Part shown: positions 1 through 64,000 of the stretch, one piece after another
Layout of the letters: each line of letters starts with the position of its first letter
Position numbering within the stretch: position 1 is the first letter of the stretch
Assembly: GCF_965363235.1 (NCBI RefSeq)
Contig: NC_134841.1
Coordinates: 54,457,078 to 54,521,077, forward strand
Reading direction: 5' to 3'
DNA from: Mytilus galloprovincialis
Taxonomy: Eukaryota; Mollusca; Bivalvia; Mytilida; Mytilidae
DNA length: 64,000 nucleotides
The notes under the pieces: model-generated
The model's input: the letters and a program-made list of their open reading frames with translations, nothing else
Database searches by the model: none
What the model was told of the DNA's origin: nothing
Position numbers and translations under genes: made by a program

Positions 1-1710
1 CTTTTACAAAAATCTTCTCCTCTGAAACCACTGGGCCAAATTTAACCAAACTTGGCCACAATCATCATTGGGGTATCTAGTTTAAAAAATGTGTGGCGTG
101 ACCCGGTCAACCAACCAAGATGGCAGCCACGGCTAAAAATAGAACATACGGGTAAAATGCAGTTTTTGGCTTATAACTCAAAAACCAAAGCACTTAGAGG
201 AAATCTGACATGGGGTAAAAATATTTATCAGGTCATGATCTATCTGCCCTGAATTTTTCAGATGAATCGGTCAACCCGTTGTTGGGTTGCTGCCCCTGAA
301 TTGGTAATTTTGAGGAAATTTTGCTGTTTTTGGTTATTATCTTGAATATTATTATAGATAGAGATAAACTGTAAACAGCAATAATGTTCGGCAAAGTTAG
401 ATTTACAAATAAGTCAAGATGACCGAAATGGTCAGTTGACCCCTTTAGGAGTTATTGCCCTTTATAGTAAATTTTTAACCATTTTTCATAAATCTAAGTA
501 ATCTTTTACAAAAATCTTCTCCTCTGAAACTACTGGGCCAAATTAATCCAAACTTGGCCACAATCATCTTTGGGGTATCTAGTTTAAAAAATGTGTGGCG
601 TGACCCAGTCAACCAACCAAGATGGCCGCCACGGCTAAAAATAGAACATAGGGGTAAAATGCAGTTGTTGGCTTATAACTCAAAAACCAAAGCCCTTAGA
701 GGAAATCTGACGTGGGTAAAAATGTTTATCAGGTCAAGATCTATCTGCCCTGAAATTTTCAGATGAATCGGTCAACCCGTTGTTGGGTTGCTGCCCCTGA
801 ATTGGTAATTTTGAGGAAATTTTGCTGTTTTTGGTTATTATCTTGAATATTATTATAGATAGAGATAAACTGTAAACAGCAATAATGTTTGGCAAAGTTA
901 GATTTACAAATAAGTCAACATGACTGAAATGGTCAGTTGACCCTTTTAGGAGTTATTGCCCTTTATAGTCAATTTTTAACCATTTTTCATAAATCTTGGT
1001 TATCTTTTACAAAAATCTTCTCCTCTGAAACTACTGGGCCAAATTAATTAAAACTTGGCCACGATCATCTTTGAGGTACCTTGTTTGAAAAATGTGTCCG
1101 ATGACCTGGCCATCCAACCAAGATGGCCACCACGGCTAAAAATAGAACAGGGGTAAAATGTAGTTTTTTGCTTATAACTGTGAAACCAAATCATTTAGAG
1201 GAAATCTGACAAGGAGTTAAATTGTTAATTAAGTCAATATATATCTGCCCTGAAATATTCAAATGAATTGGACAATTGTTGGGTTGCTGTCCTCAAATTG
1301 GTAATTTTTAAAGAAATTTTGCTGTTTTTGGTTATTATCTTGAATACTATTATAGATAGCGATAAACTGTAAACAGCGATAATGTTCATCAAAGTAAGAT
1401 CTACAAATAAGTCAACATGACCTAAATGGTCAATTTACCGCTTAAGGAGTTATTGCCCTTTATAGTCAATTTTTAACAATTTTCATTAATTTGGTAAATT
1501 TATGTAAATTTTTACCAAATATTTTTCTCTGTTACTAATGGGCAAAGTTCATTATAGATATAATTGTAAGAAGCAAGAACGTTCAGTAAAGTAAGAACTT
1601 CAAACACATCACCATCACCAAAATACAATTTTGTCATGAATCCATTTGTGTCCTTTGTTTAATATGCACATAGACCAAGGTGAGCGACACAGGCTCTTTA
1701 GAGCCTCTAG
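1..1710 (+). repeat. Helitron-like array, family A (5' end outside window)
   Basis: Three tandem units of about 500 bp start at 1, 503 and 1004, each opening with CTTTTACAAAAATCTTCTCC. The 3' terminus is AGGTGAGCGACACAGGCTC, then a short hairpin (GGCTC...GAGCC), then CTAG followed by T. A hairpin just before a CTRR end is the hallmark of Helitron 3' ends. No transposase is present, so this would be a non-autonomous derivative. It is inserted in a LINE endonuclease reading frame, which resumes at 1711. The open frames inside it come from the repeat itself and are not genes. Other copies of the family lie at 11985-13759 and 17588-19950, and a relative at 10439-11197. Confidence 0.7.
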
Positions 1711-2830
1711 TTTATGATTACATGTTTTTACCCTTTTCTTCTTCTTTTTTAGTGATACCTTGCATACTTTTTCATATATTGAATGAATACTATATGTGGC
1801 ATCATTCACATTCTTTTTGTCCAAGATAATTTCGTTATTCAAAAAATATTTCAGCTCATTTTGAATGACAGGATGTGTAAATGATTTCTGGAAATTTTGG
1901 ATACTTTCTGTGTCCCATTTATACCTCAAAGGAAAGTCTTTCATATGACTTTTATTTTTTTCCAATTGGAAAGATGCTAAAATCTTAAAAGTGATTTTGC
2001 AATGGCAATCTGAAAAATTTGCCTTAAAATCAGATACATTAAAATATAAAATCTGCTGAAGAAGGCTTTGAGAACCTAAAGCATAATCAACTACACTGCA
2101 TCCGTTAGGTTTGAAACATGTAAATTTACCAGTGCTATCACCACACATATGCCTATTCAAGATACGTAACTGATTACCTATACAAAATTCTAGCAAGTTT
2201 TTCCCTCTGGAATCAGTAATTAAATCTTTACTGAACCTTTCCTCTGTAAAACAGTCTACATCATAACTTTCATCAAATAAAGGAACATGGGAGGTGCTGT
2301 CACCATCAATATAGTCTTTTTCTGACCCAGTTCTGGCATTAAGATCCCCTACTAACAGGATGTCCCCTATAGACCCATAACTATCAGTTATATCCTTTTC
2401 TATTATCTCCAATAGGTCTGTTTGGCTTTTGGGAGCATAGTATATCAAGCACAGATATATATCTTTGTTTAAATTGAAAAAATCTTTCTTCAATTTTAGC
2501 CATTGGTATTCTGAGGTCCCGTTATTTAAAAAATTTACAACTTTACGAATTTCTTTGCGTATGAGAATCCCTAGACCACCAAAATATCTGTTATTTTTAG
2601 ATTTTGGCCTGCAGAATGGGTAGTACAAAAAGTTTTCAAATTTCAAATGATGTTCATAGCCAACATGGGTCTCCGTTCATAATACTAAATCATTTTCTGC
2701 TAATTCTGATAAAAAATACTTATCATTTGACTTATCATGATGTTCTGACAACAACCCCCCAACATTCTGATAATTTTAACACTGAATCTCAGACATCTGG
2801 ACAGGATATATTACTTGGTATTAAACAGCA
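1711..2830 (-). pseudogene. LINE endonuclease (EEP-fold) fragment, broken
   Basis: Translation on the minus strand gives the apurinic-like endonuclease of a non-LTR retrotransposon. Readable landmarks, in order: NVGGLLS near the start, ENDLVL then TETHVGYE, GGLGILIRKEI, LIYYAPKS, the catalytic GDLNARTG, VVDYALGS, and SDCHC where SDH is usual. A TGA interrupts the frame between ENDLVL and TETHV (around 2676). The downstream end is cut by the Helitron-like element, so no reverse transcriptase follows. The open stretch below 2646 runs on into the repeat, and the last residues there are not LINE sequence. The fragment sits head to head with the plus-strand LINE that starts near 2850. Confidence 0.75.
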
Positions 2831-2850: not shown

Positions 2851-3996
2851 TTGATAATGAGTCTATTAAATGTAGATAATTTATTATTACCTCTCCCTCA
2901 GGTCAGTTTAATAATTGATGTGAAATTATCCTATGTCTCTGTGTTTATTTTAGCAATAAGTGTTTGTATATATTATATAATCAATTTAGAAAACCATGCA
3001 CTGACAGCTAATGATAAGATTTTTAATTCTTATGGTTTTAGTAAATCAAAAGGTATCAGGATTCGTTCTCATAATGTTAATAGGATTGAAAGTAAATATG
3101 AAGAAATTAAACATAACCTTATGTTTTCTGATAACCAACCTGATGTATTAGGATTGTGTGAAACATTTTTAACAAAACACACAACTGATAATGAATTACA
3201 AGTACCTGGTTATGTATTTGAAAGAAAGGACAGAACATCTTAAGGTGGGGGTGGTCTGATTGTTTACTTTTCTGAAACTATTAAATTTTTAAGAAAAAAC
3301 AACATAGAAATAGGGGGTACGGAAACAATGTGGTTTGAAATTAAACCAGATTACAAAAAATCTTTTTTATTATGTTTTGCTTATAGGCCACCAAAATCAC
3401 TGATAGATTGGGTTGATGATTTTGAAAAAGAAATAAGAATGGCAATGACCATGAATTCAGATATAACAATTATGGGTGATTTTAATTTTAATTTTAAAGC
3501 ACCAAACAAACCTCCTCAAAAATGGCTAAATGTTTTAGATTCATATAATTTTCAACAACTGATTGAAAAAGCCACAAGGGTAACAAAAGATACTAGTACA
3601 CTGATTGATCATATTTATGTCAATAATCCAAATATGGTAGAGGAATCACATGTGTGTAGATATGCAATAAGTGACCATTATCCTATCTGTTTAACAAGGA
3701 AAGAAGTCAACATAGGCAAAAAGAATACACACAGTACAATTACATATAGAAATTTTAAAAATTTCAACCAAAACAATTTTTTATTAGATCTGCAATCTAC
3801 ACCTTTTCATGAAATTGAATTTGAAGAAAACCCCTCTGACTGTCTACAATTGTTTTATGATATGTTGAACAAGGCTTTAGATAAACATGCTCCTGTTGTT
3901 AAAAAGAGAGTTAAAAGGGACAGGCAGCCTGAATGGTATAACAGTGAAATCATTTATGCTAGGAATATGAGAGATAAATATAATGCACTTGGTTAA
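2851..3996 (+). pseudogene. LINE ORF2 endonuclease domain with one nonsense codon
   Basis: The N-terminal 60 or so residues are hydrophobic and unremarkable. The endonuclease begins at IRIRSHNVNRI and continues with DVLGLCETFL, an internal TAA at 3241 in the same frame, GGGGLIVYF, FAYRPPKS, the catalytic MGDFNFNF, the LIDHIYVNN block and the terminal ISDHYPI. The frame is otherwise open until 3996, where a shift moves translation to the frame starting near 3983. The protein would nick target DNA to prime reverse transcription. With these breaks it is not expected to be made. Confidence 0.8.
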
Positions 3997-5797
3997 AACT
4001 AAACAAATTGTAGATAACTCAAAAAAGAATTATTATGAAAATATGGTAAAAGACTCCAATGACCCTAAAACCTTATGGAAATGTCTTCACAGTCTGAACC
4101 CAAAAGTTAAAAATACACCATTTGAGTTAGCCACAGAAGATAACAATACAACTAAAAGTAAAAAATGTATAGCTGATACTTTTAATAACTTTTTCACTTC
4201 CTGTGCTGAAAAACTAAGAGAACAAGGAAATTATACACCTGTTAACAAAGCAGATTTTAGTAATCTAAGTAAATTTGTTAAAAATAAATTACATAAACAT
4301 GAAAATTTTTCTATACCACCAGTGAACATGAATGAGCTATTTAATGAATAAGCAAAACTTGATATAAATAAAGCATCTGGTATGGATAATATTGGACCAA
4401 AAATCCTAAGATTAAGTGCCCCTTTTATTGCATCACCTCTCATATATATTTAACAGAATGATAGATACTGGTATATATCCTTCATTACTGAAGAATGCTA
4501 AGGTAACACCAGTTTTCAAGGATGGTGACAAGCTTCTAGCAACAAATTACAGACCTATATCTGTTCTTCCAACTTTATCAAAATTAATAGAAAAACATGT
4601 TTCTAATAAAATGTACAAATATTTATCAAAACTTAAACTTTTGCACCCTACACAATCTGGTTTCAGGCCGTAACATTCTTGTCAAACTGCACTTATCAAT
4701 ATCATTAACAAATGGTTGCAAGAAATGAATGATGGTAATTTAAATCTAGCAATTTTATTAGATTTTAAAAAAGCTTTTGATTTGGTAGATCATGATATTC
4801 TTTGTTTAAAGCTTAAAATTTATGGATTTAGTGAGGCTTCTGTTAGTTTTTTCAAGTCATTCCTCAATAACAGAAAACAGCAGGTAAACATTTGTAATGT
4901 TTATTCTGAACAACAACATGTAAAATTTGGTGTCCCCCAAGGTTCTATACTTGTTCCCCTATTGTTTGTATTATTTATAAATGACCTTCCCTTATGCATT
5001 GAAAATTGTGAAACAGACCTATATGCTGATGACACCACTCTTCATAAATCTGGGAAAAACATATAGAAAACATACATGATGATGTTCAAGAAGATTTATA
5101 CAGGGTTGAAGAGTGGTGTAAAATGAACAACATGTTCATTAATGCAAATAAAACAAAATGTTTGGTTACTGGAACAAAACAGAAACTATCAATTCAGACC
5201 TGTCAACCAAACTTGATAATAAATTCAAAAGTACTACAAAATTCTTCATGTGAAAAATTATTAGGTGTTAAAATTAATGACAACACACTTAACTGGAAAA
5301 ATCAAATTGACCAAGTTTGTGCTAATATATCATCCAGAATATACCTTCTTTCTAAAATAAAGAAATTTTTAGATATAAATGCAAGGAAAACATATTACAA
5401 TGGGTATATTCTTCCCTTAATTGACTACTGCTGTATTATTTGGGGTGAATGTAAAAATGAAGGGATAACAAGAATTTTAAAACTCCAAAAAAGGGCAGCA
5501 AGATTAATTCTAGATGCAGATCCTTTATCCCCCTCAGCCCCCTTATTTAAAAAACTTGGATGGATGACAGTTGACAATAGAATAAAATACCACAAATATT
5601 TACTTCTATATAAATATATGCATATGGAAGCACCAATGTACCTAATTCAAAAATTTAAACTGAAATCAGATAATAATCCTTACTCCTTAAGAGGCGTCAC
5701 TCAAGGTAATCTGATAGTTCCTAAGCCAAAAGCTGAACTATTTAAGAAATCCTTTGCTTATTCTGGATCAGTATTATGGAATGGACTACCATTGTAA
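3983..5797 (+). pseudogene. LINE ORF2 linker and reverse transcriptase, frameshifted
   Basis: The linker (IVDNSKKNYYENM, LWKCLHSLNP) leads into DINKASGMDNIGPKIL, typical of the region before RT motif 0. After a frame change come FKDGDK and NYRPISVLP, a stop at 4671, then motif A (LDFKKAFDLVDH), motif B (GVPQGSILVPLLF) and motif C (YADDTTL). Another frame change near 5060 is followed by the thumb/C-terminal region (LLGVKIND, LQKRAARLI, LWNGLPL). All catalytic aspartates are visible, so the lineage was once active. Translation is cut at 5797, where the MULE fragment begins. Confidence 0.8.
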
Positions 5798-7287: not shown

Positions 7288-9778
7288 ATGGAGATGACCT
7301 CTGAAGACTGCCAAGAGTCATATCATTTCACACATTATAATAAACATGAATATAATGTGGAACCTTTTTTTATTTTGACAGGAATGAATGAACAAAATGT
7401 TGATGAGATCGAAACACCTGGTCCACCTGAGATTAAAGAATTCACTGACAACATTCTTACAGCACCCATTTTGATATTTGATTTAGAAACTACTGGCCTT
7501 CGTGAGTGTATTTTTTTAAAACAAAGTTTTTGTAGCTCCCAAGCATCAAATAATGCTGCTTTTAGATGTCAATTTGGTTCAAGTTTAAAGTATACTAGAT
7601 ATCAAAGAGATGGGAGCCATCTCTGTGGGCCCCGCTGTGAATAATGTGCATTAAAAAATTGTATCTTTACCATAGGACATGGGTTTGTCAACTGAAATCA
7701 AAGTTTTTGACCTTGACCTTTGACCTATGAAGTTGTAAATAAATTATGACACACCCTTTGGTGTTGGTTTATAAACATGTCAAGTATAAACTTTGAAATG
7801 ATAAAGGTTCTCAAGATATAGAGCGGACACGATCTTTACCATAGGACATGCGGTTGTCAACTGAAACCAAAGTTTTTGACCTTGACCTTTGACCTAGGAA
7901 GTTGCACATAAATTATGACACACCCTTTGGTGTTGGTTTATATACATGTCAAGTATAAACTTTGAAATGATAACGGCTCTCAAGATATAGAGCGGACACA
8001 ATCTTTACCATAGGACATGGGGTTGTCAACTGAAACCAAAGTTTTTGACCTTGAACTATGCCCTAGGCAGTCGTTCATAAATTATGACACACCCTCTGGT
8101 GTTGGTTCATATACATGTCAAGTATAAACTTTGAAATCATAACGGTTCTCAAGATATAGAGTAGACACGATCTTCACCACAGGACACAGGGTTGTCAACT
8201 GAAACCAAAGTTTTTTTACCTTGACCTTTGACCTAGGAAGTTGTACATACATCATGACACGCCCTCTGGTGGTGGTTAATAAACATGTAAAGTATAAAGT
8301 ATGAAATCATAATGGTTCTCTAGATATGGAGCGGACACAAAGTGTTACGGACGGACGGACAGACTGATCACTATAGGGGACCGCCTTTGGCGGGACCCTA
8401 ATTAAATTCTCTCTCTATATATATATATGCTGACAATATATTTGCTTATTATATGATGCAGATAGTGATGTAATCAAATTGAAGCTTTTGGGTTAAAAAT
8501 GAATAAAAAAACTAATCACATATAAAAAAGAAGATGTGGTATGATTGCCAATGAAACAACTTTTCATCAGAGACCAAATGACACAGAAATTAAAACCTTT
8601 AGGTCACCGTACTGCCTTCACCAATGAGCAATGCCAACACCGCATAGTCAGCTATATAAAAGGCCCAGAAATGATAAATGTAGAACAATTAAAAAAATAA
8701 TACAAACTGCATAATTTATGTACCAAAAAAATATGATTGAAATACAAATATGTAACACAGCAACATATGACGACTACTGAATTACAGGCTCCTGACTTGG
8801 GACAGGCACATACATACAGATGTTGCAGGGTTGAACATGTAAGCAGGATCCCAACCATCCCTCTAACCTGTGACAGTTTTGTACAAATCAAAATTTCAGC
8901 ATTAAGTTTTAAAGATGTACCTTTTTCTAGCAAAGATCTAATTGGCTTCTTTTATCACAAATTTTAATGCAGTAATATCATTATTTTTTTTTCCAGAGAG
9001 AACCTCTGATATTATACAGATAGCAGCCTTTTCCCAAAATAACAAATTCTCCAGCTATATAATGCCAAATAGAGCTATATCAAATGGGGCATCAGAGGTA
9101 ACGAAGATATCAGTTATTGGCAGTCAAATGTATTATAATTTACAAGCTGTACCATCAAAACTACAAAACGAGGCATTCACTGATTTTAATGATTTTGTTA
9201 AGAGTTTTCTGGTCAAACCACTTCTTGTTGGCCACAACATCAAATGTTATGATTACCATGTGCTGTACAATTCCCTTAGATTTCATAATATGTGGAATGA
9301 TTTTGCATCTAACATAAGTGGCTTTTTGGACACTTTGGAACTCTTTAAACTGTTATATCCAAAAAGACCATCTTATAGTCAAACAGCTTTGGTGCATGAA
9401 CTGTTAGGTGAAACCTATTCTGCTCACAATGCAGTAGATGATACAGAAGTTCTGTACTGACTGGTTCAATCTAAGGGAGATATCAAAGGCAACATTCAGG
9501 CTTTAGTTTTTTCAGCAAATTATCCCAAAGAATTCAGTCATCAGCAAGACAACCTCCAATCTTTCACCGATGCCACTTTTTCTAAAGCTATTTCTAGAAC
9601 CCTTGCATTGAAGGCTGCAAGATCAAATTTAAGATTAGAACATTTTAATATTGCTGTTAATGGATTAGATGGACTGAAGTCAGTTCTATCAAAACTAACT
9701 TATGAAGGAATTGTGAGAGTCACTACTAACAAGAAAGCTATTATAAAGATCTTTGACTTTCTTACCCGTGAAAGTTAA
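7288..9778 (+). CDS. DEDDh 3'-5' exonuclease gene, two exons, with in-frame TGA
   Basis: Exon 1 (7288-7501) ends at C/GTGAGT in phase 1. Exon 2 (8997-9778) follows a T-rich tract and CCAG. Joined they give 332 codons. Exo I is IFDLETTGL, completed across the junction to QRTSDIIQIAAF. Exo II is VGHNIKCYDYHVL. Exo III is HNAVDDTEVL with the catalytic H and D. This is the DnaQ/TREX-like fold, which removes 3' nucleotides with two metal ions. A TGA at 9458-9460 sits just after Exo III, yet the frame stays open for 105 more codons (LVQSKGDIKGN ... FDFLTRES) and ends in TAA. That tail resembles the C-terminal domain of mollusc proteins annotated PolC-type-like. Either the protein ends at about 225 residues with a complete catalytic domain, or this is a young pseudogene or a sequence error. 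I have not identified an ortholog. Confidence 0.75.
7602..8401 (+). mobile_element. Pearl-like non-autonomous Helitron (HINE), copy 1
   Basis: It starts near ATCAAAGAGATGGGAGCC and contains about four tandem units of 165-170 bp, each including ACCTTTGACCTAGGAAGTTG. An (ACGG)n microsatellite and ACAGACTGATCACTATAGGG follow, then a terminal hairpin (CCGCC TTT GGCGG), then CTAA before T. The arrangement of 5' end, about 160-bp repeats, ACGG microsatellite and hairpin end is that described for bivalve pearl elements. It lies in the exonuclease intron. A reverse-oriented relative is at 24072-25393. Confidence 0.8.
8523..8890 (+). repeat. Interspersed repeat family R, copy 1
   Basis: It begins at GAAGATGTGGTATGATTGCC and passes through GGCTCCTGACTTGGGACAGG towards CCTCTAACCTG. 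At least nine other pieces occur in the window on both strands. The family has no coding capacity and no inverted ends that I can see. It is unclassified here; a SINE-like or truncated retroelement origin is possible. The copy sits in the exonuclease intron, just upstream of the exon 2 acceptor. Confidence 0.7.
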
Positions 9779-22500: not shown

Positions 22501-25500
22501 ACAATAAATTAATCATCATACCTCTATGTCCTATAGGTACCATGCATAGTCGCATTTGTCATCCATTCTCATGAGTATTCAGTTTGGGTTATTTTGGAAG
22601 AAAAACGAAAATAAAGGTGTCCGGATACATTGTTTCCGACATCTGACTGACTTTTAAGACAGACATAACTACTGGTTTTAACACGGAAAACCAATTGTAT
22701 GATAGATAATAAAAATGAAGAATAAATAAGCCAATCAGAGCGTGATATCGTGGTATTTAGATGGTAAGAACCACTACTATTAAACCTCGGTTTCACTTAC
22801 ACATAATTTTCATAAGTACTCTGACGGATACAGGACAATTATTTCGCCATTATCTGCATGTATACTATGATTAGTATACTACTATAATAAAAAGGATCGC
22901 TATGGAGAAGAAACTCATACCTGCAAACTTTTCAAAATCCCCAAGGGGGTTTGGCGTGCAAGATGGCTGTCATAGTCCTAAAAAAGAACCTTCAAGGGGG
23001 CCTGCAAATACATTTTAATGTCATTGTAAAATTAATTGTTTTGTTTAAATTGTGGACAAAATGGCTCTTTCAAAATTTCAATTTTGGAGCCTCCATGGGG
23101 GAAATCCCCCACAAATAGTGACAGTTGGCAGGTATGGAAACTTAGAATTAATAGTTAATAAAAAATTAAATACACTTTAATATTTATAATATAGATATGT
23201 ATGTTCTTTGTATACAGAGACGTGAAAATAATGGACTATAACAGAAACCAAAATAATCACGGACTTTGAAAAAAAGAGAGAGAGCTTAAAAATATTGTCC
23301 TGTCTCCATGTACCTATATGACTTTTGATATCATTTCTTAAATTCTCCAGACATAAAATCTTTTACAAAAAATCATCCTAAAATAGTTAACATACTTTCA
23401 ACCAAGCTTAAATGCCTGCAATTTCCTTTTTTAGTCAAACATGACTTCCAGTTTTAAACTTGGACAAAAATTTCATAAGAGTACTCAGGGACAGGACAAT
23501 AATTATCGCTTTGATGGAGACTCTTTATATAAATAGCAGTGATGATCACCTAGGAGTCAAGAAGAAATTTAAAATTGATAGTTGATAGCAAATACACTTT
23601 TTTTTATAGTATACGTATGTTCATAGTGTACAGAAACACGAAAATGATAGAATTTAACAGAAAGAAAAAAAAAAATAACAAATTTTGGAAACAAGAGAGA
23701 GGGCTGAAACTGTTTTCAAGTACCTATGAATTTTAATACCTTTTTCTAAAATTCTCCAGACATGCAATCTTTTACTGAAATTCTCCAGACACAAAATCTT
23801 TTACAAAAAATCTCCCTACAACTGTCTGTCAACAGTTTACATTACTTTCAACCAAGCTCTAATTCCCGAGATTTCGCGGGTGTGTTCTATTCATTAATGA
23901 TTTTTACAGGAGTTATAGGAACTTTTTGCTTAATTTGGCTGTACTTTCATGTAAGCAAAGACCTTATGAATGATTTATAAGTAACATTTCAATATTATTT
24001 AGTGTTTTCCTAACATAGCTAGAAATGGTACTGGTTGATGTCAAGGCACATCAACCAATGAGATCTTATTATTAGGGCCCCGCCAACGGCGGGTCGCCCT
24101 ATAGTGATCAGTCTGTCCGTCCGTCCGTCTGTCCGTCCGTCTGTCCGTCCGTAACACTTTCGTGTCCGCTCCATATCTAGAGAACCGTTATGATTTCATA
24201 CTTAATACTTAACATGATTATTAACCAACACCAGAGGGTGTGTCATGTTGTATGTACAACTTCCTAGGTCAAAGGTCAAGGTCAAAAACTTTGGTTTCAG
24301 TTGACAACCCCGTGTCCTGTGGTGAAGATCGTGTCCGCTCCATATCTAGATAACCATTATGATTTCAAAGTTTATACTTGACATCCATTTTAACAACCAC
24401 CAGAGGGTGTGTCATGATGTATGTACAACTTCCTAGGTCAAAGGTCAAGGTCAAAAACTTTGGTTTCGAGTTGACAATCCTGTGTCCTGTGGTGAAGATC
24501 GTGTCCGCTCCATATCTAGATAATCGTTATGATTTCAAAGTATATACTTGTCATACATTTTAACCACCACCAGAGGGCGTGTCATGATGTATGTACAACT
24601 TCCTAGGTCAAAGGTCAACGTCAAAAAAACTTTGGTTTCAGTTGACAACCCTGTGTCCTGTGGTGAAGATTGTGTCCGCTCTATATCTTGAAAACCGTTA
24701 TGATTTCAAATATTATACTTGACATCTATTTTAACCAACACCAGAGGGTGTGTCATGATATATGTACCACTTCCTAGGTCAAAGGTCTGTCTGTCTGTTG
24801 GTCTGTCCATCGCTAACAAATTTGATCCACATTATATTTTGAGAGGACAGCTGTTATTATTTCATACTTTATACCTGACAAACATTTTCAACTTAACATA
24901 TATATTAACCAACACAAGAGAATGTGTCATAATGTATGCATCCTAGGTCTAAGATCAGTCTGTCGGTCTGTCCATCTGTTCGTTGTTCTTAACAAATTGT
25001 GTCCGCTCTACCTCTCGAGAACCATTAATATTTCATACTTTATACTTGGTGGGTCATAATATATTGAAGGCATAATTCTAAAAATATGTGACAAATATCA
25101 ATTGGGCAGCACCTTTAAACATATTGTTCAAACATCAATCCATATATCCAGAAGTCACCTTAGAGTAGTAATCAATGAGTTCACATCATGCAGTCATATC
25201 ACTATTATACTATGAAAGTAAGATGAGAATATTTATCAGTTTTAACTTAAAATCTTAGATCAAAATCACACATGAGACTATGTAATAACTTCAAATAATG
25301 CTTCATATCAGATTATCCATACAACTTATTTACCCCACGTTATTGACAGCGGGGCCCACAGAGATGGCTCCCATCTCAATGATATCTAGTTGCGATACTT
25401 AACCAGTCTCATAATATGCAATAATAAAAAGCCTTCAAAAATTCTGAAATTAACGTAAGTCAAAAGATTTGTTTGTTCCTATGTTGTTTGAATATAAACA

Positions 25501-42125: not shown

Positions 42126-44701
42126 ATGACAACAAAACGATGGAGCAATAGCTCTATAAAAAATATAGATGATGCGATGGATGCGTTAGTTGAAGACTAT
42201 TTTCACTACGACGATTTATCTAATAGGGAGGCAGAGTACATCAAGAGAAATCTCGCGGATGTCAATGGGGAAGGAAATTTGATTCTGGAAGAAGTTGATT
42301 CAGCGAATTTCAACTTCCCAAATGAAATTCTGCAGGACATTGAAAATGCACAGAATCATGAGATTGATCCTGATCCTGATCCTAAGGTCAATAATTGACA
42401 CTACTGTTCTCTGTGTGCTATCTTCCTCCTCTTATGGTACACCGTTGCTCGAGGTAATATCTCGCGGTACTTTTTTTGACGAATCAGACAAAGAAAATAG
42501 CTCGAGTAGCAAGAGGTTTCGCTCTGTCACTGATGAAGACACTGACTCTTTTCTAGCTTTAAGTGTTAACAAGAACACAAAAACTAAAACAAAGAGTGAC
42601 TTGAAAGTGATGCTGGATTTTTTCATATCTGTTGGAGAAATGCGTGATTCAGTGGAAATACCTGCCAAAGACTTGGACAGTCTGTTATCAAGATTTTTTC
42701 TTGGAGTCCTGAAGAAAAATGGTGACGAATATGAGCCTGACTCTTTATCCTCTATGTTCAACAGCTTGGATAGACATTTGAAGGACTCAAAAAGTAGTAT
42801 AAGGTACGATTATTTTCATGTAGATTATTTGATATCTGTGAGACATGTAACTCCCTTGTCTTGATATAGCATGATAGCCTTTGCATTATTCTGTCAAGCA
42901 TTATGACTCGAATATTCAGTGCCAATATTTTAATTTTAGCCTTGTGTCATTTTTTTTGGTAAAAACTATATATATCATCTGGGTCAATGTGGTTTTGATG
43001 ATCTTAAGCTTGTGTACAATGAATATTCCTTGGTTTCTCTTTGCTATAAGTATAAAACATGTACATACAAAAATTACATGTCAGATATTATGCATATCTT
43101 TTCTTTAATGTTTCAGTATTAAAAAGGATCCTGAGTTCAACCACACAAGACGGGTATTAGAAGCGAAGCGAAAGGCATTAAAGTCATTGGGCAAGGGCAG
43201 TAAACCAAACAGAGCTGAACCTTTGACGACTGAGGAAATCCAAATCTTGAGGGAGAAAGGCGTTATTGGAACACGTAAGTTTAAAAAAAATGTTGTATTC
43301 CAGCGTGTCAGTCAGTAACTTTTAATTAAACATTTTTCTAACCTTGTGGCAAACAAATTATTTTATTTCCTTGTCGCCCTCTATCCATCCCTGATTATTA
43401 AATGGTTGTTCTAATAAAAAATGTTTAAAATACACATAAGGTCTTGAACAATGAGAGTGTCTCCAGAGGTCTTTTGCATTTTGATACAGTATTTGTCCTT
43501 TAAATACTATTTTAAGTTGGATATTTACATTAAGATACATGTATTTTAGTTAAGTTCTTTTTTTTTTCTTTTTCCAGAAAACCCTGATGCATTACTGAAT
43601 GCTGTGTTTTTAAATAATGCAACATACTTTGGTCTACGAGGTCGACAAGACCATGTTAACATGACATGGGGAGATGTCAAGTTAAAAGCTACATCTGATG
43701 GAAAGGAGTATTTGGAATTTAATGGTGAGATTATGTTATGATTTCCATCATTTAAATAGTTGATATTTTAAATCTTTTAGAAATCACAGAATATATACTT
43801 CTGTGGATAATGGATGTACATGTACAACAGTCCTGACAAAAGTTGGTAATTTGTGCTTTTAAGGATATTAACCATTGTTTTATATTTATCAAAACAAATC
43901 TTACTTACTATGCAATACATGTTTTTTGTTATATAAAAGTGAAAGTTTTGTACAGACAGGAAGGATAATTCTTCTTTAAATATTGACATAAGCATACTTT
44001 TTTCAGAAAGAAGCACCAAAACCCGTAGTGGAGCAAAAAGCAGGGATTTCCGGGATATTACGCCAAAGATTTTCGGGGAAGGAGGAAGTAATTGCCCTAT
44101 TCATGTTTACAAGGAATACAAACGGCATAGACCTCAAGACACATTAACTGATGAACATAGATTTTATTTGAGGCCTTTAGATAATAAACATGAGGAAATA
44201 TGGTACACTCGCCAAACCATAGGCAAAGATAAATTAGGTAAAATGGTAAAAAATATGGCAGAAAAAGGAGATCTTCAAGGAAGAAAGGTTAATCATTCGG
44301 GACGTAAAACTTTTGCTACCACACTACTTCAAAATGGTAGACCTGCCAATGAAGTTGCTCAATTAGGAGGCTGGAAAGGCATTAGTACCTTAACTCATTA
44401 TTCAGTACCGTCTATTGAACAACAGCAACAAGCTTCTCACACAATATCTAAGGTCATGTTGCCGAACTCAGATTTACAGACGACATCAGATTCAGAGGAA
44501 CCTTGTGAACTTTCAAACTCAAATACATTAGTTCATAATAATTTAAATGCAAATGTATCAAATACAAATAATCAAACTGCTAACAAACATGACAACCCAA
44601 TGGCCATGTTTGCAGGTGCAACTATAACAGGTGGTGTTTTCAATATTAACATATACTCAGGGGAAAGAAAGAATACTATAAACTGCAGCCAAGAGCTTTA
44701 A
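42126..44701 (+). CDS. Crypton tyrosine recombinase (four exons)
   Basis: Exons: 42126-42803, 43117-43274, 43578-43724 and 44007-44701. All three introns have GT/AG borders, and the phases close. The protein starts MTTKRWSNSSIKN with an acidic N-terminus, then an N-terminal DNA-binding-like domain (LDSLLSRFFLGVLKKNG, SSMFNSLDRHL). The catalytic core shows FGLRGRQDHV (first Arg), the HSGRKTFATTLLQNG block (His and second Arg) and GWKGISTLTHYSVPS with the tyrosine nucleophile encoded at 44399. The C-terminal tail is polar and ends with the glycine-rich AGATITGGVFNINIY. The enzyme would cut and rejoin DNA through a 3'-phosphotyrosine. Only one defect is seen: a +1 frame change near 42380, in a GATCCT repeat (or a tiny intron). 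A poly(A) signal lies at 44762. It resembles the domain found in host KCTD1/ZMYM/QRICH1-type proteins derived from Cryptons. Confidence 0.8.
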
Positions 44702-54290: not shown

Positions 54291-54674
54291 ATGTGTTTAT
54301 ATGTATAAAAATGTTAGGTAGATATTTCTGTTAATTTTGCATATGCTGACTTCACAGGGTCTGATAGTGTTAATGAACCAAATGTGCAATCATGCACTAT
54401 TATTTGAATATATAATATTTGAAATTTATGTACGTTCAGCCACACATTTTACACCCACCATGGCAGACATGTTTATTCACCTTTCAGGAACAAATTAACA
54501 ACACTTAAAAAGGACATTGACAGGAACATATCTGCAAAGTTTGGTGAAATTATATTTAGTGGTTCTCAAAACAAATATCAAATCATGAAAACTTAAGGAA
54601 TGACACAGACGACAGACTTCAAGTGATGACAATAGCTCACAGTGTAAAAGTCTAATAATAAGAAAAAAACTTAC

Positions 54675-54747
54675 CTTTCATTTCTCGTTCTGGTAAACCC
54701 CTAAGGGCTTCTGCATAAGTTTTCTTTAAAAAAAATTTCTTCGACAT
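54675..54747 (-). CDS. First coding exon candidate of the MULE-like element
   Basis: The minus-strand ATG at 54747 opens MSKKFFLKKTYAEALRGLPE, then REMK, and is followed by a consensus donor G/GTAAGT. The exon is 73 nt and ends in phase 1. It lies about 750 bp inside the element's right terminus, where a transposase gene would be expected to start. I found no convincing next exon, probably because later repeats occupy the interior. The family is not recognised. Confidence 0.45.
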
Positions 54748-55664
54748 GTTGCTTTGCTGAACCAGTATCTAGCAGTGGCTTATTTATTGTCCAACATTGG
54801 AACCATTCCCATAACCTCAGTTTATTATATTTTTAAGATGTAAAGTGACACTATTAACCTCTGTACTGTTTCAAAATTGTTTAATTGCTGACATTGTGAT
54901 AAAAAGTTTACTGATAAAAATGCAATTTTATTACCTTTTCCACATACACTTTCAACAAATTGTCAGTATATTTTTTTATTTTTGAAAGGGACCTATGGTT
55001 TGTTAATTTGATATGCTACATTTCATGAGTGTTACAAGGTTGTGTCTTAAATATTGAAAAACATAAAACATTTTTTTTTTAATTCTGATAACAACAATTA
55101 AATGTATACATATTATGTCATTAAGATAAATATGATTCTTCAATTCAAAATAACTGAAATAATTGATAGATATTCATCAATGCAAGTTTTTATCTTGCAA
55201 GATCTGTCACCAAATAAGCAATTTTATATAATTTTTTCAAATGAACCATAGAGAATTTAAAATTATTTTTTTTGCATAAGACTGTGTCCTCTTTATGCCA
55301 TTGTATTAGAATAACTGAAATTTGTAAAAACATTAATATCAATGATTAATGCATTAACAAGTTTCATGTATTTCCATAATATACATTTTTTTAGCTTTAA
55401 TTAATTATTATATAATTTTCAGTTATTTTGTATCTCGTATCTCGTATCTCGTATCTTGTATCACTGTATCTCGTATCTCTGTATTGCCTTTTACACCTTC
55501 CCGATAACTTTATAGGAAATGTAATTAAACATATGCAAGATTTTATGTCTTGGCAAGAAAATGAAAAAAATAAATATCTTCTTTGCCCATCAACCTCAAA
55601 AGAAGTAGAAAGCTTAGGGTCCTATTTTAAACAGGCATTAGAACTTAGGACAGGGGACTCTTAA

Positions 55665-55670
55665 TTTATT
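55665..55670 (-). promoter_or_regulatory. Candidate polyadenylation signal for the micro-exon array gene
   Basis: AATAAA on the minus strand, about 255 bases after the stop codon of the candidate terminal exon, in A/T-rich sequence. Confidence 0.3.
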
Positions 55671-55925
55671 TATAAAATATATTTATATATCATATAGATA
55701 GATTGTGTTGCTTTTTTACTTTTTTTTGTTTTTATGGTTTTGTTTGTTAAATGTATTTTGTGTATTATTTGTCACAAACTTATTGTTCAGAGTTTACATG
55801 ACAATAAATATTTGAATAAACTTTTACATACATTAACTTTAATGTATATCAAGACTATACATACTCAATTTCAGACCAAGCAGACAATAAATGCACCAGC
55901 AAATGCATATCTTGCACCCCTACCT

Positions 55926-55961
55926 TCACACCAAAATTTTATCATTTTTATACGACGCACC
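55926..55961 (-). CDS. Candidate terminal exon of the micro-exon gene
   Basis: The last monomer on the left ends in a normal acceptor (CTGGCAG). The 36 bases after it read GASYKNDKILV and TGA in phase 0, the phase used by the array. Its opening GGTGCGTCGTAT resembles the repeat exon start GGCGCGACGCAG, so it could be a diverged repeat exon that became terminal. This is inference; no transcript evidence is available. Confidence 0.35.
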   Translation of the reverse strand, partial: GASYKNDKILV

Positions 55962-56149
55962 CTGCCAGAAAAAAAAGCAACATTAGACATACACAAAGGG
56001 AACCATTAGACATACACAAAGGGAACCATTAGACATACACAAAGGCCTTAACAGAAAACATACCGTTAAATGTGCCCTAGGCCACACGACCTAAAGGGAA
56101 AAAAAAAGGAACCATTAGACATACACAAAGGCCTAAACAGAATACATAC

Positions 56150-56176
56150 CTGGAATTCCTCAATCTGCGTCGCGAC
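56150..56176 (-). CDS. Representative micro-exon of the array
   Basis: One well-formed unit given as an anchor. Acceptor CTAGCAG, exon GTCGCGACGCAG plus ATTGAGGAATTCCAG (V-A-T-Q-I-E-E-F-Q), donor GTATGT. If the first AG of TAGCAG is used, the exon gains CAG and the peptide an extra Q without a frame change. The next unit starts exactly 88 bp to the right. Confidence 0.5.
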
Positions 56177-59100
56177 CTGCTAGAAAAAAAGGAAAGACAA
56201 CATTAGACATACACAAAGGTCTTAACAAAAAACATACCTGGAATTCCTCAATCTGCGTCGCGCCCTGCCAGAAAAAAAGAAAAGACAACATTAGACATAC
56301 ACAAAGGTCTTAACAGAAAACATACCTGAAAATCCTCAATCTGCGTCGCGCCCTGCAAAAAAAAAAAAAAGGCCACACGACCTAAAGGAAAAAACAAGAA
56401 CCATTAGACAAACACAAATGTCTTAACAGAAAACATACCTGGAATTCCTCAATCTGCGTCGCGACCTGCTAGAAAAAAAGAAAAGGCGACATTAGACATA
56501 CACAAAGGTCTTAACAGAAAACATACCTGGAATTCCTCTATCTGCATCGCGACCTGCTAGAAAAAAAGAAAAGGCGACATTAGACATACACAAAGGTCTT
56601 AACAGAAAACATACCTGGAATTCCTCAATCTGCGTCGCGACCTGCTAGAAAAAAAGAAGAGGCGACATTAGACATTCACAAAGGTCTTAACAGAAAACAT
56701 ACCTGGAATTCCTCAATCTGCGTCGCGACCTGCTAGAAAAAAAGAAAAGGCGACATTAGACATACACAAAGGTCTTAACAGAAAACATACCTGGAATTCC
56801 TCTATCTGCATCGCGACCTGCTAGAAAAAAAGAAAAGGCGACATTAGACATACACAAAGGTCTTAACAGAAAACATACCTGGAATTCCTCAATCTGCGTC
56901 GCGACCTGCTAGAAAAAAAGAAAAGACAACATTAGACATACACAAAGGTCTTAACAGAAAACATACCTGGAATTCCTCAATCTGCGTCGGGCCCTGCCAG
57001 AAAAAAAGAAAAGACAACATTAGACATACACAAAGGTCTTAACAGAAAACATACCTGGAATTCCTCAATCTGCGTCGCGACCTGCTAGAAAAAAAGAAAA
57101 GGCGACATTAGACATACACAAAGGTCTTAACAGAAAACATACCTGGAATTCCTCTATCTGCATCGCGACCTGCTAGAAAAAAAGAAAAGGCGACATTAGA
57201 CATACACAAAGGTCTTAACAGAAAACATACCTGGAATTCCTCAATCTGCGTCGCGACCTGCTAGAAAAAAAGAAGAGGCGACATTAGACATACACAAAGG
57301 TCTTAACAGAAAACATACCTGGAATTCCTCAATCTGCGTCGCGACCTGCTAGAAAAAAAGAAAAGACAACATTAGACATACACAAAGGTCTTAACAGAAA
57401 ACATACCTGGAATTCCTCAATCTGTGTCGCGCCCTGCCAGAAAAAAAGAAAAGACAACATTAGACATACACAAAGGTCTTAACAGAAAACATACCTGGAA
57501 TTCCTCAATCTGCGTCGCGCCCTGCCAGAAAAAAAGAAAAGACAACATTAGACATACACAAAGGTCTTAACAGAAAACATACCTGGAATTCCTCAATCTG
57601 CGTCGCGCCCTGCCAGAAAAAAAGAACAGACAACATTAGACATACACAAAGGTCTTAACAGAAAACATACCTGGAATTCCTCAATCTGGGTCGCGACCTG
57701 CTAGAAAAAAAGAAAAGGCGACATTAGACATACACAAAGGTCTTAACAGAAAACATACCTGAAAATCCTCAATCTGCGTCGCGCCCTGCAAAAAAAAAAA
57801 AAAAGGCCACACGACCTAAAGGAAAAAAAAAGAACCATTACACATACACAAAGGTCTTAACAGAAAACATACCTGGAATTCCTCAATCTGCGTCGCGATC
57901 TGCTAGAAAAAAAGAAAAGGCGACATTAGACATACACAAAGGTCTTAACAGAAAACATACCTGAAAATCCTCAATCTGCGTCGCGCCCTGCAAAAAAAAA
58001 AAAAAAGGCCACACGTTCTAAAGGAAAAAAAAAAGAACCATTAGACATACACAAAGGTCTTAACAGAAAACATACCTGGAATTCCTCAATCTGCGTCGCG
58101 ACCTGCTAGAAAAAAAGAAAAGACAACATTAGACATACACAAAGGTCTTAACAGAAAACATACCTGGAATTCCTCAATCTGCGTCGGGCCCTGCCAGAAA
58201 AAAAGAAAAGACAACATTAGACATACACAAAGGTCTTAACAGAAAACATACCTGGAATTCCTCAATCTGCGTCGCGCCCTGCCAGAAAAAAAGAAAAGAC
58301 AACATTAGACATACACAAAGGTCTTAACAGAAAACATACCTGGAATTCCTCAATCTGCGTCGCGCCCTGCCAGAAAAAAAGAAAAGACAACATTAGACAT
58401 ACACAAAGGTCTTAACAAAAAACATACATGGAATTCCTCAATCTGCGTCGCGACCTGCTAGAAAAAAAGAAAACACAACATTAGACATACACAAAGGTCT
58501 TAACAGAAAACATACCTGGAATTCCTCAATCTGCGTCGCGACCTGCTAGAAAAAAGAAAAGACAACATTAGACATACACAAAGGTCTTAACAGAAAACAT
58601 ACCTGGAATTCCTCAATCTGCGTCGGGCCCTGCCAGAAAAAAAAGAAAAGACAACATTAGACATACACAAAGGTCTTAACAGAAAACATACCTGGAATTC
58701 CTCAATCTGCGTCGCGACCTGCTAGAAAAAAAGAAAAGACAACATTAGACATACACAAAGGTCTTAACAGAAAACATACCTGGAATTCCTCAATCTGCGT
58801 CGCGCCCTGCCAGAAAAAAAGAAAAGACAACATTAGACATACACAAAGGTCTTAACAGAAAACATACCTGGAATTCCTCAATCTGCGTCGCGCCCTGCCA
58901 GAAAAAAAGAAAAGACAACATTAGACATACACAAAGGTCTTAACAGAAAACATACCTGGAATTCCTCAATCTGCGTCGCGACCTGCTAGAAAAAAAGAAA
59001 ACACAACATTAGACATACACAAAGGTCTTAACAGAAAACATACCTGGAATTCCTCAATCTGCGTCGCGACCTGCTAGAAAAAAAGAAAAGGCGACATTAG

Positions 59101-59640
59101 ACATACACAAAGGTCTTAACAGAAAACATACCTGGAATTCCTCAATCTGCGTCGCGACCTGCTAGAAAAAAAGAAGAGGCGACATTAGACATTCACAAAG
59201 GTCTTAACAGAAAACATACCTGGAATTCCTCAATCTGCATCGCGACCTCCTAGAAAAAAAGAAAAGGCGACATTAGACATACACAAAGGTCTTAACAGAA
59301 AACATACCTGGAATTCCTCTATCTGCATCGCGATCTGCTAGAAAAAAAGAAAAGGCGACATTAGACATACACAAAGGTCTTAACAGAAAACATACCTGGA
59401 ATTCCTCAATCTGCGTCGCGACCTGCTAGAAAAAAAGAAAAGGCGACATGAAACATACACAAAGGTTTTAACAGAAAACATACCTGGAATTCCTCAATCT
59501 GCGTCGCGACCTGCTAGAAAAAAGAAAAGGCGACATTAGACATACACAAAGGTCTTAACAGAAAACATACCTGAAAATCCTCAATCTGCGTCGCGCCCTG
59601 CAAAAAAAAAAAAAAAAAGGCCACACGACCTAAAGGAAAA

Positions 59641-62600
59641 AAAAAGAATCATTAGACATACACAAAGGTCTTAACAGAAAACATACCTGGAATTCCTCAA
59701 TCTGTGTCGCCACCTGCTAGAAAAAAAGAAAAGGCGACATTAGACATACACAAAGGTCTTAACAGAAAACATACCTGGAATTCCTCTATCTGCATCGCGA
59801 CCTGCTAGAAAAAAAGAAAAGGCGACATTAGACATACACAAAGGTCTTAACAGAAAACATACCTGGAGTTCCTCAATCTGCGTCGCGACCTGCTAGAAAA
59901 AAAGAAAAGGCGACATTAGACATACACAAAGGTTTTAACAGAAAACATACCTGGAATTCCTCAATCTGCGTCGCGACCTGCTAGAAAAAAAGAAAAGGCG
60001 ACATTAGACATACACAAAGGTCTTAACAGAAAACATACCTGAAAATCCTCAATCTGCGTCGCGCCCTGCAAAAAAAACAAAAAAAAGGCCACACGACCTA
60101 AAGGAAAAAAAAAAGAATCATTAGACATACACAAAGGTCTTAACAGAAAACATACCTGGAATTCCTCAATCTGTGTCGCCACCTGCTAGAAAAAAAGAAA
60201 AGGCGACATTAGACATACACAAAGGTCTTAACAGAAAACATACCTGAAAATCCTCAATCTGCGTCGCGCCCTGCAAAAAAAACAAAAAAAAGGCCACACG
60301 ACCTAAAGGAAAAAAAAAAGAATCATTAGACATACACAAAGGTCTTAACAGAAAACATACCTGGAATTCCTCAATCTGTGTCGCCACCTGCTAGAAAAAA
60401 AGAAAAGGCGACATTAGACATACACAAAGGTCTTAACAGAAAACATACCTGGAATACCTCAATCTGCGTCGCGACCTGCTAGAAAAAAAGAAAAGACAAC
60501 ATTAGACATACACAAAGGTCTTAACAGAAAACATACCTGGAATTCCTCAATCTGCATCGTGACCTGCTAGAAAAAAAGAAAAGACAACATTAGACATACA
60601 CAAAGGTCTTAACAGAAAACATACCTGGAATTCCTCAATCTGCATCGCGACCTGCTAGAAAAAAAGAAAAGACAACATTAGACATACACAAAGGTCTTAA
60701 CAGAAAACATACCTGGAATTCCTCAATCTGCGTCGCGACCTGCCAGAAAAAAAGAAAAGGCGACATTAGACATACACAAAGGTCTTAACAGAAAACATAC
60801 CTGGAATTCCTAAATCTGCGTCGCGACCTGCTAGAAAAAAAGAAAAGGCGACATTAGACATTCACAAAGGTCTTAACAGAAAACATACCTGGAATTCCTC
60901 AATCTGCGTCGCGACCTGCTAGAAAAAAAGAAAAGGCGTCATTAGACATACACAAAGGTCTTAACAGAAAACATACCTGAAAATCCTCAATCTGCGTCGC
61001 GCCCTGCAAAAAAAAAAAAAAAGGCCACACGACCTAAAGAAAAAAAAAAAGAACCATTAGACATACACAAAGGTCTTAACAGAAAACATACCTGGAATTC
61101 CTCAATCTGCGTCGCGACCTGCTAGAAAAAAAGAAAAGACAACATTAGACATACACAAAGGTCTTAACAGAAAACATACCTGGAATTCCTCAATCTGCGT
61201 CGCGACCTGCTAGAAAAAAAGAAAACACAACATTAGACATACACAAAGGTCTTAACAGAAAACATACCTGGAATTCCTCAATCTGCGTCGCGACCTGCTA
61301 GAAAAAAAGAAAAGGCGACATTAGACATACACAAAGGTCTTAACAGAAAACATACCTGGAATTCCTCAATCTGCATCGCGACCTGCTAGAAAAAAAGAAA
61401 AGACAACATTAGACATACACAAAGGTCTTAACAGAAAACATACCTGGAATTCCTCAATCTGCGTCGCGACCTGCCAGAAAAAAAGAAAAGGCGACATTAG
61501 ACATACACAAAGGTCTTAACAGAAAACATACCTGGAATTCCTAAATCTGCGTCGCGACCTGCTAGAAAAAAAGAAAAGGCGACATTAGACATTCACAAAG
61601 GTCTTAACAGAAAACATACCTGGAATTCCTCAATCTGCGTCGCGACCTGCTAGAAAAAAAGAAAAGGCGTCATTAGACATACACAAAGGTCTTAACAGAA
61701 AACATACCTGAAAATCCTCAATCTGCGTCGCGCCCTGCAAAAAAAAAAAAAAAGGCCACACGACCTAAAGGAAAAAAAAAGAATCATTAGACATACACAA
61801 AGGTCTTAACAGAAAACATACCTGGAATTCCTCAATCTGTGTCGCCACCTGCTAGAAAAAAAGAAAAGGCGACATTAGACATACACAAAGGTCTTAACAG
61901 AAAACATACCTGGAATTCCTCTATCTGCATCGCGACCTGCTAGAAAAAAAGAAAAGGCGACATTAGACATACACAAAGGTCTTAACAGAAAACATACCTG
62001 GAGTTCCTCAATCTGCGTCGCGACCTGCTAGAAAAAAAGAAAAGGCGACATTAGACATACACAAAGGTTTTAACAGAAAACATACCTGGAATTCCTCAAT
62101 CTGCGTCGCGACCTGCTAGAAAAAAAGAAAAGGCGACATTAGACATACACAAAGGTCTTAACAGAAAACATACCTGAAAATCCTCAATCTGCGTCGCGCC
62201 CTGCAAAAAAAACAAAAAAAAGGCCACACGACCTAAAGGAAAAAAAAAAGAATCATTAGACATACACAAAGGTCTTAACAGAAAACATACCTGGAATTCC
62301 TCAATCTGTGTCGCCACCTGCTAGAAAAAAAGAAAAGGCGACATTAGACATACACAAAGGTCTTAACAGAAAACATACCTGAAAATCCTCAATCTGCGTC
62401 GCGCCCTGCAAAAAAAACAAAAAAAAGGCCACACGACCTAAAGGAAAAAAAAAAGAATCATTAGACATACACAAAGGTCTTAACAGAAAACATACCTGGA
62501 ATTCCTCAATCTGTGTCGCCACCTGCTAGAAAAAAAGAAAAGGCGACATTAGACATACACAAAGGTCTTAACAGAAAACATACCTGGAATACCTCAATCT

Positions 62601-64000
62601 GCGTCGCGACCTGCTAGAAAAAAAGAAAAGACAACATTAGACATACACAAAGGTCTTAACAGAAAACATACCTGGAATTCCTCAATCTGCATCGTGACCT
62701 GCTAGAAAAAAAGAAAAGACAACATTAGACATACACAAAGGTCTTAACAGAAAACATACCTGGAATTCCTCAATCTGCATCGCGACCTGCTAGAAAAAAA
62801 GAAAAGACAACATTAGACATACACAAAGGTCTTAACAGAAAACATACCTGGAATTCCTCAATCTGCGTCGCGACCTGCCAGAAAAAAAGAAAAGGCGACA
62901 TTAGACATACACAAAGGTCTTAACAGAAAACATACCTGGAATTCCTAAATCTGCGTCGCGACCTGCTAGAAAAAAAGAAAAGGCGACATTAGACATTCAC
63001 AAAGGTCTTAACAGAAAACATACCTGGAATTCCTCAATCTGCGTCGCGACCTGCTAGAAAAAAAGAAAAGGCGTCATTAGACATACACAAAGGTCTTAAC
63101 AGAAAACATACCTGAAAATCCTCAATCTGCGTCGCGCCCTGCAAAAAAAAAAAAAAAGGCCACACGACCTAAAGAAAAAAAAAAGAACCATTAGACATAC
63201 ACAAAGGTCTTAACAGAAAACATACCTGGAATTCCTCAATCTGCGTCGCGACCTGCTAGAAAAAAAGAAAAGACAACATTAGACATACACAAAGGTCTTA
63301 ACAGAAAACATACCTGGAATTCCTCAATCTGCGTCGCGACCTGCTAGAAAAAAAGAAAACACAACATTAGACATACACAAAGGTCTTAACAGAAAACATA
63401 CCTGGAATTCCTCAATCTGCGTCGCGACCTGCTAGAAAAAAAGAAAAGGCGACATTAGACATACACAAAGGTCTTAACAGAAAACATACCTGGAATTCCT
63501 CAATCTGCGTCGCGACCTGCTAGAAAAAAAGAAGAGGCGACATTAGACATTCACAAAGGTCTTAACAGAAAACATACCTGGAATTCCTCAATCTGCATCG
63601 CGACCTCCTAGAAAAAAAGAAAAGGCGACATTAGACATACACAAAGGTCTTAACAGAAAACATACCTGGAATTCCTCTATCTGCATCGCGATCTGCTAGA
63701 AAAAAAGAAAAGGCGACATTAGACATACACAAAGGTCTTAACAGAAAACATACCTGGAATTCCTCAATCTGCGTCGCGACCTGCTAGAAAAAAAGAAAAG
63801 GCGACATTAGACATACACAAAGGTTTTAACAGAAAACATACCTGGAATTCCTCAATCTGCGTCGCGACCTGCTAGAAAAAAAGAAAAGGCGACATTAGAC
63901 ATACACAAAGGTCTTAACAGAAAACATACCTGAAAATCCTCAATCTGCGTCGCGCCCTGCAAAAAAAAAAAAAAAAGGCCACACGACCTAAAGGAAAAAA
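59641..64000. repeat. Higher-order repeat in the array, 2,135-bp period
   Basis: Rare variants recur at a fixed distance: the read-through frames at 59961 and 60166 reappear at 62096 and 62301, and the ATTTAG exon at 60801 reappears at 62936, each 2,135 bp apart. Inside one period a shorter block is repeated at 731 bp (60801 and 61532). The array therefore grew by duplication of multi-monomer blocks, not only single units. Confidence 0.8.

Follow-up and report, generated by a model that had tools for sequence, protein, structure and literature searches.

Is a tandem array in which every unit looks like a micro-exon followed by a short intron a gene, or a satellite with the outward form of one? 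The question is raised by positions 55962-64000 of a 64,000-nt stretch of the Mytilus galloprovincialis genome (C4:54457078-54521077, hereinafter the window), for which an earlier note had proposed one gene encoding a variable-length nonapeptide-repeat protein. Our analysis covered the window, related loci and searches of the genome assembly of 1,384,861,812 bases. It suggests that the array is probably a satellite derived from a micro-exon/intron cassette, one that looks competent for splicing and is free of any sign of coding selection.

The repeat unit and its arrays

Read on the minus strand, the monomer consists of a donor GTATGT, an intron with CTAAT, a T-rich tract and TAGCAG, and a 27-nt segment ending in CAG, after which the next donor follows. 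Positions 55962-64000 contain 87 minus-strand donors of the form GTATGT[AT]TT[CT]TGTT, and an AG lies exactly 27 nt upstream in 87/87, so that the exon-intron anatomy described in the earlier note proved right and precise. Its equation of the monomer length with exon plus 61-nt intron also holds, as the unit spacing is exactly 88 (27 + 61) in 71 of 86 cases; most of the other spacings are units of 113-117 bp with an additional acceptor and T tract. The acceptor is ambiguous in most units, since TAGCAG supplies two, and the exon is possibly 27 or 30 nt long, both lengths being returned by the layout test described below. All but one of the 87 27-mers belong to the VATQIEEFQ family (type a), the remaining one, at the array edge, being VVWPRAHLT (type b). 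Three of the 86 a-type units have an in-frame TAG (frame 0) and 83 are open; when joined, these 86 27-mers contain 3, 7, and 76 stops in frames 0, 1, and 2, respectively. The array features inside the window are as follows.

55962-64000, minus strand: in-window part of array W, 87 units of a 27-nt exon-like segment and an intron of about 61 nt, continuing past the window edge
63930-63956, minus strand: a-type segment GATQIEDFQ, on this strand the first to lie completely inside the window
62936-62962, minus strand: a-type segment with in-frame TAG, VATQI*EFQ
61532-61558, minus strand: a-type segment with in-frame TAG, VATQI*EFQ
60801-60827, minus strand: a-type segment with in-frame TAG, VATQI*EFQ
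59901-60900, no strand assigned: stretch identical to 62036-63035 at a shift of 2,135 bp (identity 1.0 in both 500-bp windows tested)
56064-56090, minus strand: b-type 27-nt segment VVWPRAHLT at the array's 3' edge, with acceptor CTTTAG and donor GTATGT on either side
55926-55963, minus strand: last acceptor (AG at 55963-55962), after which come a short reading in phase 0, GASYKNDKILV, and TGA

The stretch at 59901-60900 is, judging by its sequence, a recent duplication of many units within the array. The one at 55926-55963 is a possible terminal exon and could equally well be a broken unit; the first nine bases are similar to the last units of arrays C and D (listed below), which run into other sequence.

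The earlier note counted about 90 units; the whole array is approximately three times longer than the part in the window, and sister arrays are present on the same contig:

Array W, C4:54513253-54538141: 274 exon-like segments
Array A, C4:54017583-54028542: 122 exon-like segments
Array B, C4, at least 56685071-56715076: at least 339 exon-like segments, with matches from 56672238
Array C, C4:57862057-57879952: 196 exon-like segments, the start adjoining a run of N
Array D, C4:57997687-58012743: 164 exon-like segments
Array E, C4, at least 58165667 to about 58194930: at least 315 exon-like segments
Array F (the seventh, at 36.53 Mb), C4, about 36529743-36544880: same monomer, polarity and splice layout
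C4, at 53.28-53.31, 59.10, and 97.23 Mb: further monomer matches

The monomer, its polarity and the splice layout are common to arrays W and A-E, which were read in part or as a whole, and likewise to F. A 35-mer from the intron has 2,032 exact matches in the genome (839 + 1,193), and its reversed control has 0. At least 1,117 of these matches are on C4 (71 in the window and 1,046 in the other C4 stretches read), and so are all of the 100 places listed. With part of the candidates scored in each case, a genome search with the monomer gave 35 matches, 35/35 on C4, and a second one gave 271, those listed being all on C4.

Long head-to-tail arrays of one monomer, such as the 274 segments of W and the 122 to at least 339 of the five others, are characteristic of a satellite, as is concerted evolution. 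The mean distance between monomers is 0.016-0.053 within an array and 0.090-0.109 between the groups W/B and A/C/D/E; by this measure, monomers are homogenised within array groups. Satellites of bivalves and other animals similarly form long head-to-tail arrays of homogenised monomers at several loci (PMC8268682; PMC7492417).

Coding potential of the 27-nt segments

An alternative to a non-coding satellite is a working family of micro-exon genes (MEGs), in which the minus strand would be transcribed and many 27-nt exons joined into a nonapeptide-repeat protein, its length depending on exon choice and array size. We consider it unlikely, although much of the anatomy is as such a gene would have it: the splice layout is perfect in all window units, the segments between GT-AG signals have a length divisible by three (87/87 in the window and 1,079 of 1,130 scored donors in the six arrays), nearly all of those in the window are open in frame 0, the second exon type is also 27 nt long, and at W, A, D, and F the shared 5' flank consistently lies on one side of the array. 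There is a precedent as well. Davis et al. reportedly described, in 1988, the Schistosoma mansoni antigen 10-3/MEG-4 as having tandemly repeated exons that encode 81-base repeats. Tandem 27-bp exons have been published for this gene, and schistosome MEGs in general share the symmetric micro-exons (PMC4015677).

The changes accumulated in the segments argue otherwise. The coding test included 1,327 segments from the six arrays, each of 27 nt with AG before and GTATG after it and at least 19 of 27 sites consensus-like, broken units being excluded. Their 113 distinct exon changes comprise 72 non-synonymous, 35 synonymous, and 6 stop changes versus 71.3, 32.2, and 9.5 expected without selection from the observed mutation spectrum. 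The other two frames are also at the neutral expectation. The segments thus show no protein-coding constraint, as expected of a satellite, and no reading frame kept by selection, which a MEG-like gene would have. The three codon positions vary alike (1,017 units of 80-96 bp, longer variants being left out), and the b segments, judged by eye, vary mostly at protein-changing sites. A frame-0 stop is present in 16 of the 1,327 segments, while 51 of the 1,130 scored donors lack a 27-nt segment, two of these being merely unscored at sequence ends. Segments joined in silico contain 148 frame-0 stops in W, 74 in B, 7 in C, 28 in D, 91 in E, and none in A; for scoring and joining, the stretches of B, D, and E were shorter than their final extents, and some 25-nt segments are labelled 28 owing to an alternative AG, a label that the joined-frame counts inherit. 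Neutral changes, stops and frame-shifting exons therefore make a conserved protein across these arrays unlikely.

Searches for gene parts and relatives gave little. No exon-exon joint was found in 291,517 bases read, and a 31-place exon-exon junction pattern had no matches in the genome. Of 35 matches to a protein query against the genome, the best had E 1.5e-4, none exceeded 51% identity and many contained stops; an intronless relative was not among them. The absence of spliced copies weighs little, because most genes leave no retrocopies. Open reading frame (ORF) lists and flank alignments gave no clear candidate for a coding first exon in the 5' flanks, and neither constant coding exons on either side of the arrays nor a common last exon were recognised in the flanks, which were read in part. 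Relatives of the nonapeptide were absent from a large protein set at E 10 and from PDB at E 1, its peptide strings do not occur in paper texts, two patterns had 0 matches in viral contigs, and Rfam had 0 matches in 55500-57500. Four proteins retrieved with a longer query (32-37% identity, E 5.7e-8 to 0.71) were judged to be chance matches of a repetitive query; three of them carry Pfam PF13349, and one has a source name, from a bacterial assembly. The best Pfam match (DUF5520, E 0.0003) was under the curated cut-off, like all other rows. The single gene for a nonapeptide-repeat protein, as initially proposed, is not supported, given the neutral changes in all three frames, the codon positions that vary alike, the stops and the frame-shifting exons; nor was a retrocopy junction, an intronless relative or a convincing database protein found to support it.

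The arrays also differ from known micro-exon systems. In S. mansoni 10-3/MEG-4, transcripts and the antigen are known, whereas the present arrays are known from DNA only, have hundreds of units each and consist of segments without coding constraint. MEG exons of 3-81 bp are separated by long introns of up to 5 kbp (PMC10526429), unlike the nearly identical introns of about 61 nt here, and MEGs mostly have a signal peptide, for which no clear first-exon candidate is seen at these loci. Tandem exon duplication with mutually exclusive splicing is similar in that exon and intron are copied together (PMC9013439); however, one exon of the group is chosen there within a coding gene, and no constant coding exons are apparent in the flanks read here. 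The earlier note considered such an array not known to be described. This has to be narrowed, as tandem 27-bp exons are in print for S. mansoni 10-3/MEG-4 (PMC4015677), but in the open literature, mostly without subscription papers and partly in excerpts, neither an exon-intron satellite nor tandem micro-exons by the hundreds turned up.

Splice layout and intron conservation

If no protein is encoded, the monomer could be an ordinary satellite that is exon-intron-like by chance, its signals being meaningless. The lack of coding constraint is compatible with this, and tandem repeats are numerous, so a rare layout may arise somewhere among them. We nevertheless find the explanation quite improbable, first of all because the splice layout exceeds chance expectation. 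With textbook splice rules, unfitted to the species and written once the monomer had been seen, only 4 of 20,000 dinucleotide-shuffled circular monomers passed the strict layout and 51 the relaxed one (either strand); when the relaxed rule also required an exon length that is a multiple of three, 21 of 20,000 passed. Uniform random monomers passed the strict and relaxed layouts in 1 and 17 of 20,000 cases, respectively.

Second, two unlike 27-nt segments occur in the same setting. Units at the array edges carry the b-type 27-mer (VVWPMGHLQ and variants), which is 27 nt long in 5/5 full copies in the DNA read. A b pattern fits six places in the genome, all on C4, the copy in array F being missed; this search is no test of length, because the pattern fixes it. 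The a and b segments have different acceptor contexts, and the donor, branch-like site and length in common. Between the a and b consensus sequences, 12 of 27 sites in the exon differ versus 2 of 37 in the following intron half (Fisher P 0.0004). Taken individually, the five b copies depart from a at 12-15 exon sites, and from the a intron at 1-4 of the following 37 bases. Such similarity of introns between dissimilar exons would be unusual in a plain repeat; it is consistent with a constraint on the intron, without proving it.

Changes were also counted against expectations with rates set by base and CpG class; these rough event tests take related units to be independent. Intron positions 1-36 have 65 changes versus 103.5 expected, the exon has 133 versus 118.8 (122 versus 107.2 in exon positions 1-24), and intron positions 37-48 have 57 versus 41.6. 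Conservation is stronger in the donor-to-branch half of the intron than in the exon, and is not confined to splice sites.

Several of these observations, and some others, weigh against a satellite derived from an exon-intron cassette. Intron positions 7-30, beyond the known splice sites, are also conserved (45 changes versus 69.7 expected). The donor (intron positions 1-6) has 9 changes versus 17.0 expected (P 0.03), the branch (31-36) has 11 versus 16.8 (P 0.09), and the AG has 5 versus 7.1 (P 0.29), which alone is non-significant. Since donor, branch and AG are weakly or non-significantly constrained and the conservation is wider, the upkeep of splicing is unproven; a satellite resembling a gene by chance would likewise be consistent with GT and AG not being clearly more conserved than other sites, and with a conserved monomer half that need not concern splicing. 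Long open frame-0 runs appear when segments are joined (989 amino acids in A and 1,642 in C), which a coding interpretation could use. Finally, an ancestral short gene was not found.

Flanks, origin and neighbouring features

Blocks that reach the array show 90-97% similarity among the 5' flanks of W, A, and D, and array F shares another part of the 5' flank at 85-92%. An 875-bp piece of the flank of D is matched over no fewer than 715 bases at eight places (itself included), with 90-100% identity; every one of these is on C4, among the 40 of 305 candidates scored. Where the array edge interrupts the 5' flank differs between F, D, and A/W; this disfavours an essential exon nearby and speaks against a micro-exon gene. 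On the 3' side, arrays A-E break within a monomer, and the following bases differ, except those of C and D, which are alike; in B, C, D, E, W, and F, shared 3' blocks follow at a greater distance. From these shared flanks we infer segmental duplication of one locus. A common 3' exon was considered and rejected, as the shared 3' block begins at varying distances from the array and has indels between copies. The last unit of array F runs into this block, which was set aside by judgement as flank or transposon sequence.

An origin of the array as the internal tandem repeats of a mobile element that spread by transposition, like the satellite-carrying Helentron elements of oysters (PMC7492417), is very improbable: both flanks are common to several loci, and diverged flank pieces (77-85%) occur on C10 and C2 with no monomer match within the 10 kb read at each, but the well-conserved flank copies and array matches, among the matches listed, are all on C4 and not dispersed over chromosomes, and the blocks of shared flank extend over kilobases with other repeats among them, as in segmental duplication. 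The diverged 5' flank copies (L034, C10:52.01 Mb, and L035, C2:39.85 Mb) possibly represent a pre-array state. Another tandem repeat, with units of about 62 bp and recognised by many overlapping matches, lies in the 5' flank shared by arrays A and D (L013-L015, L030), several kilobases upstream of them.

The satellite favoured here would then have originated from a real exon-intron unit, amplified and spread by unequal exchange and segmental duplication. The ancestral locus may have had two kinds of 27-nt exon, a and b, with introns of about 60 nt between them that were nearly identical. Amplification of the a unit by unequal exchange would have filled the middle of the arrays, with the older units, both a and b, remaining at the edges; the locus would also have been copied, flanks included, along one contig, C4. 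The splice signals persist in nearly every unit, and the 27-nt segments now seem to evolve like non-coding DNA. No satellite is known to us in which a full exon-intron cassette forms the monomer.

Were the minus strand transcribed, removal of the introns would be predicted from the signals, and with it a spliced RNA of variable length with no conserved protein. It is conceivable, yet rather doubtful on the present DNA data, that the arrays are actually transcribed and spliced, with single transcripts running through hundreds of near-identical 27-nt exons, RNA length set by array size and splice-site pairing, and the product kept as a non-coding RNA or a fast-changing repeat peptide. A spliced unit would provide a natural test of spliceosomal pairing among hundreds of equal donors and acceptors, as well as an example of a satellite that arose from an exon-intron unit. 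An unspliced one would be a warning for gene prediction, as a satellite with perfect splice signals can yield false giant repeat proteins.

Downstream of array D, there are two related cysteine-rich domains (L025:1156-1419 and 9397-9630), 42% identical and without a Pfam match, and an immunoglobulin (Ig)-like fragment below the Pfam cut-off (L025:8772-8888). Bar one chance-level match, these pieces had no counterpart in the window or in the other loci compared. Downstream of the array in the window, 54660-54760 (minus strand) could be the first exon of another gene, MSKKFFLKKTYAEALRGLPEREMK followed by GTAAGT, with no Pfam match.

The remaining part of the window contains two further arrays of about 170-bp units (7663-8338 and 24160-24787), whose consensus units look like mutual reverse complements. 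Pieces of a non-long-terminal-repeat (non-LTR) retrotransposon, with matches to endonuclease PF14529 and reverse transcriptase PF00078, are found at 3244-5797 (plus strand), and another endonuclease-like ORF, just under the Pfam cut-off, at 1615-2676 (minus strand). ORFs at 42283-44701 (plus strand) have DUF3504 and phage-integrase matches above the cut-off and a QRICH1 match below it; presumably, they represent a tyrosine-recombinase gene or element. An ORF at 8942-9460 (plus strand) has a match to the exonuclease family RNase_T (PF00929).
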